A DNA stretch of 64,000 bases from Lachnospiraceae bacterium YSB2008 (GTDB lineage: Bacteria > Bacillota > Clostridia > Lachnospirales > Lachnospiraceae). Below, in pieces: positions 26,491 through 51,465 of this stretch. Location of the stretch: positions 124,001-188,000 of the forward strand of contig JHWR01000001.1 of NCBI GenBank assembly GCA_000687655.1. Direction: 5' to 3'. The notes beneath the pieces were generated by a model that saw only the letters and a list, made by a program, of their open reading frames with translations, did no database searches and was not told the DNA's origin. How positions within the stretch are numbered: the stretch's first letter is position 1; each line of letters starts with the position of its first letter. Position numbers and translations under genes: made by a program.

Positions 26491-27519
26491 CTACAGCAGG
26501 TCAGCTATCTCATATATCATCTTTTCAGTCTTTTCCCAGCCAAGGCAAGGATCTGTTATAGACTGACCATATACTCCGCCGTCCGGCTTCTGATTGCCAT
26601 CTACAAGATATGACTCAACCATAAGTCCCTTTACAAGCTTCTTTATATCATCAGAATGTCTCATGCTGTGAAGAATCTCTTTAGCGATTCTTGGCTGCTG
26701 ATCAAAATGCTTATCTGAATTAGCATGGTTTGTATCAACGATTACTGCAGGATTCTGAAGTCCGCTCTTCTCATAGAGTTCATGAAGGAATATAAGATCC
26801 TCGTAATGATAGTTAGGTGCTGAATGACCTGACTTATGAGAATAACCTCTCAGGATTGAATGAGCCATAGGATTACCCTTACTCTTTACCTCCCATCCGG
26901 CATATACAAATGTATGTGAAGACTGAGCAGCTGTTATGGCATTCATCATAACTGAAAGCATACCGCCTGTCGGATTCTTCATACCTACAGGGATATCAAG
27001 TCCGCTTGAGGTCAGACGGTGCATCTGGTTCTCAACACTTCTTGCGCCAACTGCAACATATGTAAGTACATCTGAAAGATAAGAATGATTCTCAGGATAG
27101 AGCATCTCATCTGCACATGAGAAACCTGTCTCTTCAAGTGCGGAGATATGAAGCTTTCTTATAGCCATGATTCCCTTAAGCATATCAGGTGCGCTTTCAG
27201 GATCCGGCTGATGAAGCATTCCCTTATAACCAACGCCGGTTGTACGTGGCTTATTGGTATATATTCTCGGAACTATAACGATCTTGTCACTGACTTTGTC
27301 CTGAACCTCTCTGAGTCTTGAAATGTACTCAAGTACAGCATCAGGTCTGTCAGCTGAGCAAGGTCCTATTACAAGAATGAACTTGTCACTCTTTCCAAGG
27401 AATACATCCTGTACAGCCTGGTCATTTGCTTTCTTATTCTTTGCTGCCTCTTCTGATAAAGGATACATCTCCTTTACGACTCTTGCTGACGGCAGTTCTC
27501 TCTTCCATTCTAAATTCAT
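26491..27519 (-). CDS. aroF: 3-Deoxy-7-phosphoheptulonate (DAHP) synthase, type I (AroFGH-like)
   Basis: Catalyses the first step of the shikimate pathway from phosphoenolpyruvate and erythrose 4-phosphate. The 342 residues resemble the E. coli AroF/G/H class: an N-terminal extension of about 45 residues, LVIGPCSADRPD, PRIYTNKPRTTGVGYKGM, CADEMLYPE, SHKSGHSAPNYHYEDL, VDTNHANSDK and the terminal GQSITDPCLGWEKTE. The metal-binding Cys, His, Glu and Asp positions appear present. It is 50 bp after pheA, so both would be under the leader attenuator upstream of pheA. The exact letter (aroF, aroG or aroH) cannot be decided. Confidence 0.9.
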   Translation of the reverse strand: MNLEWKRELPSARVVKEMYPLSEEAAKNKKANDQAVQDVFLGKSDKFILVIGPCSADRPDAVLEYISRLREVQDKVSDKIVIVPRIYTNKPRTTGVGYKGMLHQPDPESAPDMLKGIMAIRKLHISALEETGFSCADEMLYPENHSYLSDVLTYVAVGARSVENQMHRLTSSGLDIPVGMKNPTGGMLSVMMNAITAAQSSHTFVYAGWEVKSKGNPMAHSILRGYSHKSGHSAPNYHYEDLIFLHELYEKSGLQNPAVIVDTNHANSDKHFDQQPRIAKEILHSMRHSDDIKKLVKGLMVESYLVDGNQKPDGGVYGQSITDPCLGWEKTEKMIYEIADLL

Positions 27520-27569: not shown

Positions 27570-28667
27570 TCAGGCTTCGTAAGTATTATATGATCCCAGC
27601 ATCTTGAGACGGGCACACAGAGCACCGAGCTCCTTCATCATGTCCTGTCCATTTACTGTATTGATATTTCCTTCAGCTTCAATGAAGAAATAATAATCCC
27701 AAAGGAGTCCCTTCATCGGACGGCTTCTGAGGCTTCTCATATTGAAGCCGTGAGCACCTATGATGTTAAGTGTCTGTGCCAGAGCACCTGCTTCATTCTT
27801 AACAGTGAACACAAGAATGAACTGCTCATCATCTTTTCTGCCTTCAGGCTTCTTTGCATTTTCAGATCTTGAGAATACTGCAAATCTCGTAGTATTGATT
27901 CCGCTGTCCTGTATGTTCTCATCCAGTATGGAAAGTCCCATGATCTCGGCAGTTTCTCTGGAAGCGATAGCTGCTACAGACGGGTCATTCATTTCCTTAA
28001 CTCTCTCTGCAGCGAGTGCAGTATTTCCGAATCCCTTTGTTGTGAACTCATGTCTTTCTATATAATCCGTGCACTGAGCGAGTGCCTGAGGATGACTTAT
28101 AACCTTCTTGATATCTTTTCTTTCACTTCCCGGAAGTCCGACAAGACAATGCCTTACAGGAAGATCTATAACCTGATTGATGAAGAGGCTTCCTGAGAAT
28201 GCCATATCAAGTACTGTACTGACTTCTCCCGCATAGCTGTTCTCAAGAGGAAGAACTGCACAATCACATTCTCCTGACTCAACGCTTTTATAAGCGAGTG
28301 CAAAATCATGCTTGCATACAAGCTCTGCTTCACTGAACAGAGTCTTTGCAGCTATATACGCAAATGCTCCTGCTGCTCCACTGTATGCAACCTTCATACC
28401 CGAAAGAAGCTTCTCCTGAAATCTTCTTGATATGCTTATTGTATTACGCATAAAGTTTACATAATATCCTTCATGCTCAGGATTCTCAATATACCCCAGA
28501 TTCTTTTCGATCAGAGCATCTTCTCTCGCACTGTCCTTTACAGACAGTCCTTTTTCCTTCTTATACTCTGCTATCCTGGCAGCTGCGTCCATTCTCTTTT
28601 CAAAGAGACGTGCCATCTCTTTGTCTATCTCTTCGATGGTCTGTCGGCTCTTCTGTAATTCATCCAT
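27570..28667 (-). CDS. pheA: Chorismate mutase/prephenate dehydratase (P-protein)
   Basis: Bifunctional enzyme of phenylalanine synthesis, converting chorismate to prephenate and on to phenylpyruvate. Residues 1-85 are an AroQ chorismate mutase domain (IEEIDKEMARLFEKRMDAA), about 92-270 the prephenate dehydratase domain (VAYSGAAGAFAYIAAKTLF, LPLENSYAGEV, and FGNTALAAERV followed by VAAIASRETAEI), with an NTTRFAVFSR segment at its end. About 285-365 form an ACT domain (GALAQTLNIIGAHGFNMRSLRSRP) for feedback by Phe. It is complete. A leader peptide, antiterminator and terminator lie directly upstream and should control it by Phe-tRNA supply. Confidence 0.95.
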   Translation of the reverse strand: MDELQKSRQTIEEIDKEMARLFEKRMDAAARIAEYKKEKGLSVKDSAREDALIEKNLGYIENPEHEGYYVNFMRNTISISRRFQEKLLSGMKVAYSGAAGAFAYIAAKTLFSEAELVCKHDFALAYKSVESGECDCAVLPLENSYAGEVSTVLDMAFSGSLFINQVIDLPVRHCLVGLPGSERKDIKKVISHPQALAQCTDYIERHEFTTKGFGNTALAAERVKEMNDPSVAAIASRETAEIMGLSILDENIQDSGINTTRFAVFSRSENAKKPEGRKDDEQFILVFTVKNEAGALAQTLNIIGAHGFNMRSLRSRPMKGLLWDYYFFIEAEGNINTVNGQDMMKELGALCARLKMLGSYNTYEA

Positions 28668-28712
28668 GTTTCTTTCTCCTCTTTTCTTAAAACTCCCGCA
28701 GATTAATCTGCA

Positions 28713-28747
28713 TATGAAAAGCGGCCTTCTAATGTAGAAAGCCGCTT
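28713..28747 (-). terminator. Attenuator terminator of the pheA leader
   Basis: On the minus strand the 12-nt arms at 28736-28747 and 28719-28730 form a stem with one G-U pair and a 5-nt loop, followed by TTTTCAT. It lies between the leader peptide and pheA, 46 bp before the pheA start, so it stops RNA before the structural gene. Confidence 0.8.
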
Positions 28748-28805
28748 AAGGTAACTAATTCATAATCTAAGTATCAGTCTCATACTTCCATAGTGGCTTC
28801 TACAT
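28732..28805 (-). promoter_or_regulatory. Antiterminator pairing of the pheA leader
   Basis: ATGTAGAAGCC of the leader RNA (28795-28805) can pair with GGCTTTCTACAT (28732-28743), leaving one bulged base. The second arm is also the 5' arm of the terminator, so the two structures exclude each other. The first arm lies in leader codons 37-40. A ribosome that reaches the leader stop codon would cover it, while one stalled at the earlier Phe codons would leave it free. Confidence 0.7.
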
Positions 28806-28914
28806 TTTCATCTGTGCTGTTAAACCCAAAAAAGTAAAAGTAAAAGGCATAGGAAATAAAGGATGCGCCGCATCCTGAATAAAGGCTATTCATTTCAGCT
28901 CTGTTATTCTTCAT
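28780..28914 (-). CDS. Phe/Tyr-rich leader peptide of the pheA operon
   Basis: A 44-codon gene in the pheA leader with an AAAGGATAAAGGA ribosome site. Residues 18-31 read SFISYAFYFYFFGF; counting residue 19 on, six Phe and three Tyr occur within 13 codons. The peptide has no other recognisable domain and ends 33 bp before the terminator stem. It is the sensing element of ribosome-mediated attenuation: shortage of charged tRNA-Phe stalls translation in the Phe run and favours the antiterminator. It is 135 bp including the stop. Confidence 0.75.
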   Translation of the reverse strand: MKNNRAEMNSLYSGCGASFISYAFYFYFFGFNSTDENVEATMEV

Positions 28915-28966
28915 TCCTTTATCCTTTGTGATATAAATCACTTTACTCCTTTAAAGCACGAAACCG

Positions 28967-28995
28967 ATTATAATATAACAAAACGTCATCGTCAA
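28967..28995 (-). promoter_or_regulatory. Sigma-A promoter of the pheA leader
   Basis: TTGACG (28990-28995), a 17-bp spacer and a perfect TATAAT (28967-28972) on the minus strand. RNA would start near 28960, giving a leader of about 290 nt before pheA that includes the leader peptide and attenuator. The promoter sits only 36 bp past the purA stop. Confidence 0.8.
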
Positions 28996-29030
28996 GCATT
29001 TTTTATGCTATTCAATAACTTCGGTATTTA

Positions 29031-30329
29031 TTATTTGCTGAGTCCAGATTCTCTATAGATGATCTCATGTCTGGCAGGACCATTTGAAACCATTGTTATA
29101 GGATATCCTATATGCTCTTCGCAGAACTCTATATACTTACGGCAGTTCTCCGGAAGATCCTCATACTTTGTGATACCTCTGATATCACACTTCCATCCCG
29201 GAAGAGTCTCAAATACAGGCTTAGCCTTCTTAAGCTCTGTAGTAGTTGGGAATGTTGTTGTTACAACTCCGTCTATCTCATAGCCTACGCATACCGGAAT
29301 CTCATCAAGATATCCGAGAACATCAAGAACTGTAAATGCAACATCAGTAGCGCCCTGAAGTCTGCAGCCATACTTGGATGCAACACAGTCAAACCAGCCC
29401 ATACGTCTTGGTCTTCCTGTTGTAGCGCCGTACTCACCACCATCACCACCGCGGCGACGAAGCTCATCAGCAACTTTTTCATCAAGAATCTCTGATGTAA
29501 ACTCACCTGCTCCTACAGCACTTGAGTATGCCTTACATACAACAACTATCTTCTTAATCTCATATGGTGGAAGTCCTGCACCTATTGCACCGTAAGCTGC
29601 AAGTGTTGATGAGGATGTAACCATAGGATATATTCCGTGATCAGGATCCTTAAGTGAACCAAGCTGTCCCTCGAGAAGTATATTCTTACCTTCCTTAAGA
29701 GCATTATCAAGGAAAGCTGAAACATCACATACATATGGCTCTATCATACGCTTATATTCCATAAGAGTATCATATACTTCATCAACTGTGAGAAGTGGCT
29801 TATGATAAAGATGCTCAAGCAGAACATTCTTCTGAGCTATAACTCTCTCAATCTTTTCCCTGAGTGAATCTCTGTCATCGAAGAGTTCACTTACCTGGAA
29901 ACCTATCTTTGCATATTTATCAGAATAAAATGGAGCGATACCTGACTTAGTAGAACCAAATGAAGCTCCCTTAAGTCTCTCCTCTTCATATGCATCAAAA
30001 AGAACATGATAAGGCATTACCATCTGAGCTCTGTCAGACACAAGAAGCTTAGGAGCCGGAACTCCGCCCGCAACCACCTCATTATACTCTTTAAAAAGCT
30101 TAGGAATATCAAGTGCCACACCATTTCCTATGATACTTACTGTGTGTCCATAGAAAACTCCTGAAGGAAGTGTGTGCAGAGCAAACTTACCATAGTTGTT
30201 TACTATAGTATGTCCTGCATTTGCGCCACCCTGAAATCTTATGATGATATCCGACTCCTCTGCGAGCATATCGGTTATCTTACCTTTTCCTTCATCTCCC
30301 CAATTGGCACCTACTATCGCTGTTACCAT
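29031..30329 (-). CDS. purA: Adenylosuccinate synthetase
   Basis: Converts IMP, aspartate and GTP to adenylosuccinate in AMP synthesis. Visible are the N-terminal P-loop GANWGDEGKGKITDML, QGGANAGHTIVNN, GSTKSGIAPFYSDK, LLEGQLGSLKDPDHGIYP, the GATTGRPRRMGWFDCV region and a terminal MVSNGPARHEIIYR. The length of 432 residues is normal. GQLGSLKD is slightly unlike the common GAQGTLLD. It has its own promoter at 30434-30462. Confidence 0.95.
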   Translation of the reverse strand: MVTAIVGANWGDEGKGKITDMLAEESDIIIRFQGGANAGHTIVNNYGKFALHTLPSGVFYGHTVSIIGNGVALDIPKLFKEYNEVVAGGVPAPKLLVSDRAQMVMPYHVLFDAYEEERLKGASFGSTKSGIAPFYSDKYAKIGFQVSELFDDRDSLREKIERVIAQKNVLLEHLYHKPLLTVDEVYDTLMEYKRMIEPYVCDVSAFLDNALKEGKNILLEGQLGSLKDPDHGIYPMVTSSSTLAAYGAIGAGLPPYEIKKIVVVCKAYSSAVGAGEFTSEILDEKVADELRRRGGDGGEYGATTGRPRRMGWFDCVASKYGCRLQGATDVAFTVLDVLGYLDEIPVCVGYEIDGVVTTTFPTTTELKKAKPVFETLPGWKCDIRGITKYEDLPENCRKYIEFCEEHIGYPITMVSNGPARHEIIYRESGLSK

Positions 30330-51260: not shown

Positions 51261-51289
51261 AAAAAAATCTAAATCAAAGAATTAATCTA

Positions 51290-51465
51290 AGGTCAGTAGC
51301 GCTCCATCAAGTTATTGATGACAGTCCGATGGATATTATCCATAAGACCAGCTCGGAAACTGTTCAGCGAATCCTCACTTCGGCGGTTCATCCTTTCATC
51401 CATCTTCACATGACCTAAACATCATCCAACGGACTAATCTTAATCACCGCGCCTCTACTTCATAT
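51290..51465 (-). ncRNA. Lysine riboswitch (L box)
   Basis: The minus strand carries the L-box landmarks in order: GTAGAGGCGCGG near the 5' end, an A/G-rich segment, GCCGAAG...TCGCTGAACAG, TCCGAGCTGGTC, GGACTGTCATC, and GGAGCGCTAC closing P1. It lies upstream of dapA with a promoter before and a terminator after it. Binding of lysine should cause early termination of the dapA-dapB operon. The match is by recalled consensus but has many fixed positions. Confidence 0.9.

Follow-up and report, generated by a model that had tools for sequence, protein, structure and literature searches.

Ribosome-mediated attenuation is a textbook mechanism of Escherichia coli. The pheL-pheA system of that bacterium (Rfam RF01859, Phe_leader) shares with the locus described here a Phe-codon-rich leader located before pheA as well as the order of arm, antiterminator, and terminator. 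An earlier note on this DNA had treated such leader logic as enteric and Firmicutes as relying mostly on T-boxes or TRAP for aromatic amino acids, a view that needs widening given that leader peptides have been described in Firmicutes before, namely his leader peptides in Bacilli (PMC2965389) and a Leu-rich ilvD attenuator of the ilv genes in Staphylococcus aureus (PMC5794164). These attenuators are of a like mechanistic type, occur within this phylum, and stand in place of T-boxes, but they concern another amino acid, other genes, and another class. The uORFC-13-1 motif, which precedes aroF in the related Acholeplasma and in environmental sequences only and contains at least one Phe codon (PMC8632094), is similar in that a uORF with one or more Phe codons lies beside a terminator before a DAHP synthase gene; by its description, however, it is set apart in having no long Phe/Tyr run and in preceding aroF rather than pheA. 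In the open full-text literature, a scope outside of which most subscription papers fall, we encountered no description of leader peptides for pheA in Clostridia.

We analyzed a 64-kb stretch of DNA (the window) from Lachnospiraceae bacterium YSB2008 and, on the basis of the features described below, are confident that positions 28713–28995 constitute a ribosome-mediated (leader-peptide) transcription attenuator of a pheA–DAHP synthase operon. All elements of the module and the operon are on the minus strand. The pheA gene (27570–28667) encodes a bifunctional chorismate mutase/prephenate dehydratase of 365 amino acids with an ACT domain (CM_2, PF01817; PDT, PF00800; ACT, PF01842), and the second gene of the operon (26491–27519), located 50 nt downstream of pheA, encodes a class I DAHP synthase of the AroFGH type of 342 amino acids (DAHP_synth_1, PF00793; TIGR00034 above the cut-off). 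Upstream of the leader module lies purA (29031–30329), and the promoter (28995–28967) starts 36 nt past its end. As the earlier note had stated, the promoter consists of a –35 element TTGACG (28990–28995) and a –10 element TATAAT (28967–28972) separated by a 17-nt spacer. We found that 11 of its 12 positions match the consensus; the same TTGACG is present, and TATTATAATCG is kept, in the closest related locus, L032. The ribosome-binding site AAAGGA (28922–28927) is located 7 nt before the ATG (28914) of a short, putatively translated ORF of 44 codons that ends with a TGA at 28782–28780 (28780–28914; MKNNRAEMNSLYSGCGASFISYAFYFYFFGFNSTDENVEATMEV), also in agreement with the earlier description. 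Given that an alternative in-frame GTG at 28941 (53 codons) is likewise preceded by a good ribosome site, AAAGGAG, the start of the leader is ambiguous. Codons 19–31 (28822–28860) read F I S Y A F Y F Y F F G F, and this run of product codons, with the six Phe and three Tyr codons counted previously, is the putative sensor and stall site.

An intrinsic terminator, comprising segments 3 and 4 (AAGCGGCTTTCTA-CAT-TAGAAGGCCGCTT followed by TTCAT; 28719–28747), was found by folding between the leader and pheA and has a counterpart in L032. Its stem of 13 pairs (one of them G-U) with a loop of 3 nt bears out the stem proposed earlier. The proposed T-run, on the other hand, proved to be short, with UUCAU following the stem and four consecutive U residues if the last two of the stem are included (UUUUCAU). 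Segment 2, the antiterminator arm AATGTAGAAGCC (28795–28806), occupies codons 37–40 and pairs with GGC(T)TTCTACATT in the 5' arm and loop of the terminator through nine exact pairs, a bulge, and three more pairs. Comparison of this 2:3 duplex with shuffles of the spacer yielded a P value of about 0.002–0.004, which upholds the complementarity claimed for these codons. The leader RNA as a whole folded 4.3 SD better than did dinucleotide shuffles. Segment 1, formed by the aromatic codons (28858–28836), can pair with a region (28808–28783) that contains the arm; this predicted 1:2 pairing is the minimum free energy structure, at –15.3 kcal/mol, with a P value relative to shuffles of 0.15, and so no better than chance, at this locus alone and a combined P of 0.04 across loci.

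Estimated energies were –26.4 kcal/mol for the finished terminator and –18.5 kcal/mol for the antiterminator, so that the switch must be kinetic. The pheL leader of E. coli behaved alike when assessed by the same measures, with values of –27.4 for the terminator and –11.0 for the antiterminator and a switch that must likewise be kinetic. The two leaders do not manifest sequence homology, the YSB2008 leader scoring 15.3 bits with RF01859 against a cut-off of 55 (E of 6.3). They also differ in that the YSB2008 leader has 44 rather than 15 codons, a mixture of Tyr and Phe codons, an arm inside the leader ORF, a compact hairpin before the run, and a DAHP synthase gene in the operon. With a ribosome placed codon by codon in the folding calculations, an A-site at or before codon 33, and thus anywhere in the run, left 10 antiterminator pairs, whereas the antiterminator pairing shrank from codon 34 and was gone by codon 37. 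In silico, both the pairing statistics and the ribosome placement therefore gave an antiterminator that is exclusive with the terminator and that is freed by a ribosome stalled in the run. The geometry put forward in the earlier note was thus retained for the stalled ribosome but required revision for a ribosome at the leader stop codon, which hides no more than the 3' portion of the arm; the predicted 1:2 pairing was a further addition.

In the mechanism that we propose, transcription would start near 28960 and a ribosome would begin to translate the leader, with the small hairpin before the run probably causing RNA polymerase to pause so that the ribosome catches up. If Phe-tRNA, and probably also Tyr-tRNA, were scarce, the ribosome would stall on codons 19–31 with its front edge short of 28806, and the free arm (28806–28795) would pair with the 5' arm of the terminator, allowing RNA polymerase to continue into pheA. 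If charged tRNA were plentiful, the ribosome would proceed beyond codon 34 and cover the arm, and the terminator (28747–28719) would form. In the case of no ribosome, the aromatic codons could pair with the arm (1:2), and the terminator would again be free to form. Counting against this mechanism are the short U-tract, the greater stability of the finished terminator, the chance-level 1:2 pairing at this locus, and the existence of relatives with no leader.

Among 60 other genomes of the genus that we searched, just one (G411) encodes PheA at high identity (L054, 90% identical), and its locus is identical to L032 (JAFUVQ010000054.1). L032 retains the promoter, the frame, the aromatic run, the TTAGAAGCC arm, and the terminator, as well as the arms of the in-leader hairpin, whose loop differs. 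Its leader, MTALRTEMNITAQGCRASFISDAYFYFYFYGFRSLKD, could be aligned in frame for 31 codons, with a single indel of 3 nt that is itself in frame. Beyond the aromatic run, the frame is not kept in L032, with the stop falling at the arm, whereas the RNA arm is kept; after the run, pairing thus appears to replace coding as the constraint. Within the genus, this subtype of PheA was detected at high identity in just two species, a distribution that suggests horizontal transfer of the entire module. The interval between the terminator and pheA in L032 (1850–1990) contains small GC-rich palindromes (GGATGCTTCGCATCC and others), none of which is present at the YSB2008 locus. Most genomes of genus g1 (for example, L059–L082) possess a different prephenate dehydratase, with a frame of about 560–590 amino acids.

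The YSB2008 leader peptide, used as a query for 397 genomes of the family, confidently detected only its own locus, with the next matches having E values of 0.0018 or worse and being mostly within long ORFs. We also surveyed the upstream regions of two sets of pheA genes: 70 belonging to this subfamily, which come from Lachnospiraceae and other Clostridia and are at least 44% identical, and 63 that are more distant. A leader was counted if it contained at least 6 Phe/Tyr residues in 12 codons, a stop before pheA, and a terminator no more than 170 nt after the run, with the strand being taken from tblastn. An aromatic leader with a terminator was present at 23 of the 70 subfamily genes, or about a third of these related Clostridial pheA genes, compared with none of the 63 distant genes and none of 1400 shuffles (Fisher, 5e-8). 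Three loci (L094, L123, and L133) with an aromatic ORF and no terminator in the search range were left out of the count, and no credible leader was found at L116, whose PheA is 69% identical, or at some other relatives. The conservation of frame and stems on which the earlier note had made its reading depend was thus found in L032, and 21 further pheA loci have the same layout with different sequences; the reading of the region as an attenuator is supported by both comparisons. In a tree of 77 PheA sequences, leaders were scattered through the subfamily, including 8 of 13 members of the clade containing the YSB2008 PheA, a pattern that either a single origin with later losses or several independent gains would produce.

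The 23 leaders are mostly unalignable with each other. Complementarity between the spacer and the 5' arm of the terminator exceeded that of spacer shuffles with a combined P of 4e-14 for all 23 loci. Given that the leaders fall into about 15 groups, we also included one member per group, which yielded a combined P of about 2e-8, or of 2e-7 without the group of the YSB2008 locus. The sharing of one layout by some 15 dissimilar groups indicates that the elements of the attenuator are rebuilt quickly while its logic is kept. The median distance from the aromatic run to the start of the arm is 21 nt, which fits the front edge of a stalled ribosome that leaves the arm free. Tyr accompanies Phe in 21 of the 23 runs, making it plausible that the leaders also sense Tyr, and Trp is almost absent. 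One leader subgroup (L101, L103, L105, and L108), found across at least two families of Clostridia, ends in MKKLLV and has a CCTCACTTGT terminator, with a hairpin AGCGTAGTC..GGCTATGCT in three of the four members. L046, on a contig labeled Spirochaetales (MAG RGIG6909), and L128 of Lachnospiraceae have very similar terminators and sister PheA proteins, as a result of either transfer or a mis-binned contig.

These comparisons bear on other explanations of the locus. The hairpin at 28719–28747 might be the 3' terminator of an upstream purA operon, with the aromatic ORF being a chance frame in AT-rich DNA, and no obvious terminator was indeed apparent for purA itself, which is upstream on this strand. 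A near-consensus promoter intervenes, however, and in L032 the same succession of promoter, leader, terminator, pheA, and DAHP synthase gene follows a hisC-like gene (named by protein reading) rather than purA, which indicates that the module belongs to pheA. Together with the recurrence of aromatic leaders and terminators in relatives and their absence from shuffles, these observations render such an origin hardly credible. It is also very improbable that the leader operates by sequence-specific arrest of the nascent peptide, as in TnaC, and so responds to free Phe and not to the charging of tRNA. The stretch GCxASFIS is common to the YSB2008 and L032 leaders, as such arrest might predict, but it coincides with the DNA that forms the in-leader hairpin, and the peptides otherwise vary freely across the 23 loci, with mainly Phe/Tyr runs in common. 

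The in-leader hairpin itself, AGGATGC-GGC-GCATCCT (28860–28876), is located just 5' of the aromatic run. The palindrome GGATGCNNNGCATCC was also considered as a dispersed repeat, a possibility that was rejected on finding it to be the sole exact copy in the genome. Compact hairpins recur in many of the leaders, with aromatic codons forming either the loop or the U-tract, as in L120 (GCAGTACGT-TTCTTT-GCGTACTGC-TTTTTTT). A subgroup of leaders (L120, L117, L083, L122, L125, and L119) has in common a VRFF hairpin, approximately GCAGTACG-TTTTTT-GCGTACTGC, in which two Phe codons form the loop and the Phe codons that follow often serve as the U-tract, so that it resembles an intrinsic terminator within an ORF. 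As a refinement of attenuation by the leader peptide, such a hairpin might act as the first terminator of a device with two terminators, passage through which would require both a closely following ribosome and a stall. L120, L037, and L091, with six or more U residues, are strong examples, and the leader coding regions fold better than their synonymous shuffles with a combined P of 8e-6. The hairpin of the YSB2008 locus, in contrast, has seven pairs and the tail TTATTTCC, making it weak as a terminator, and the corresponding P value for this leader is 0.08; a pause hairpin would account for the structure equally well. We thus consider the two-terminator arrangement unlikely and prefer pausing to conditional termination, with the hairpin probably serving to synchronize RNA polymerase with a ribosome that is catching up.

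T-boxes differ from such leaders in that the RNA binds tRNA directly and no leader peptide is involved. The T-box covariance model (RF00230) matched neither at 28640–29030 nor elsewhere in the 64-kb window, and no other Rfam family and no NCBIfam model matched the leader site. The YSB2008 genome does contain four T-boxes (L111–L114), which lie upstream of leuA, pheST, an ACT domain gene–trpE operon, and aspS (genes named by protein reading). UUC was apparent by eye in the specifier region of the pheST element, which should thus sense the charging of tRNA-Phe. Given the leader peptide of pheA, two kinds of Phe sensor would appear to operate in one genome. The window also contains a lysine riboswitch (51289–51465, minus strand; 105.9 bits).

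Our analysis extends classic amino acid attenuation to pheA in Clostridia, in which the broader family of pheA leaders seems to be undescribed. YSB2008, a Firmicute of the gut or rumen type, very probably switches its Phe-making genes by ribosome reading of a Phe/Tyr-rich peptide. More tentatively, Clostridia might hold a broad and hitherto undescribed family of attenuators that respond to both Phe and Tyr and serve a single PheA subfamily, with the YSB2008 locus as a member, often with a pausing or conditionally terminating hairpin around the aromatic codons that would help attenuation where transcription may outrun translation. Leader-peptide attenuation requires that transcription and translation be closely coupled, and these leaders would therefore make such coupling directly testable in Lachnospiraceae.
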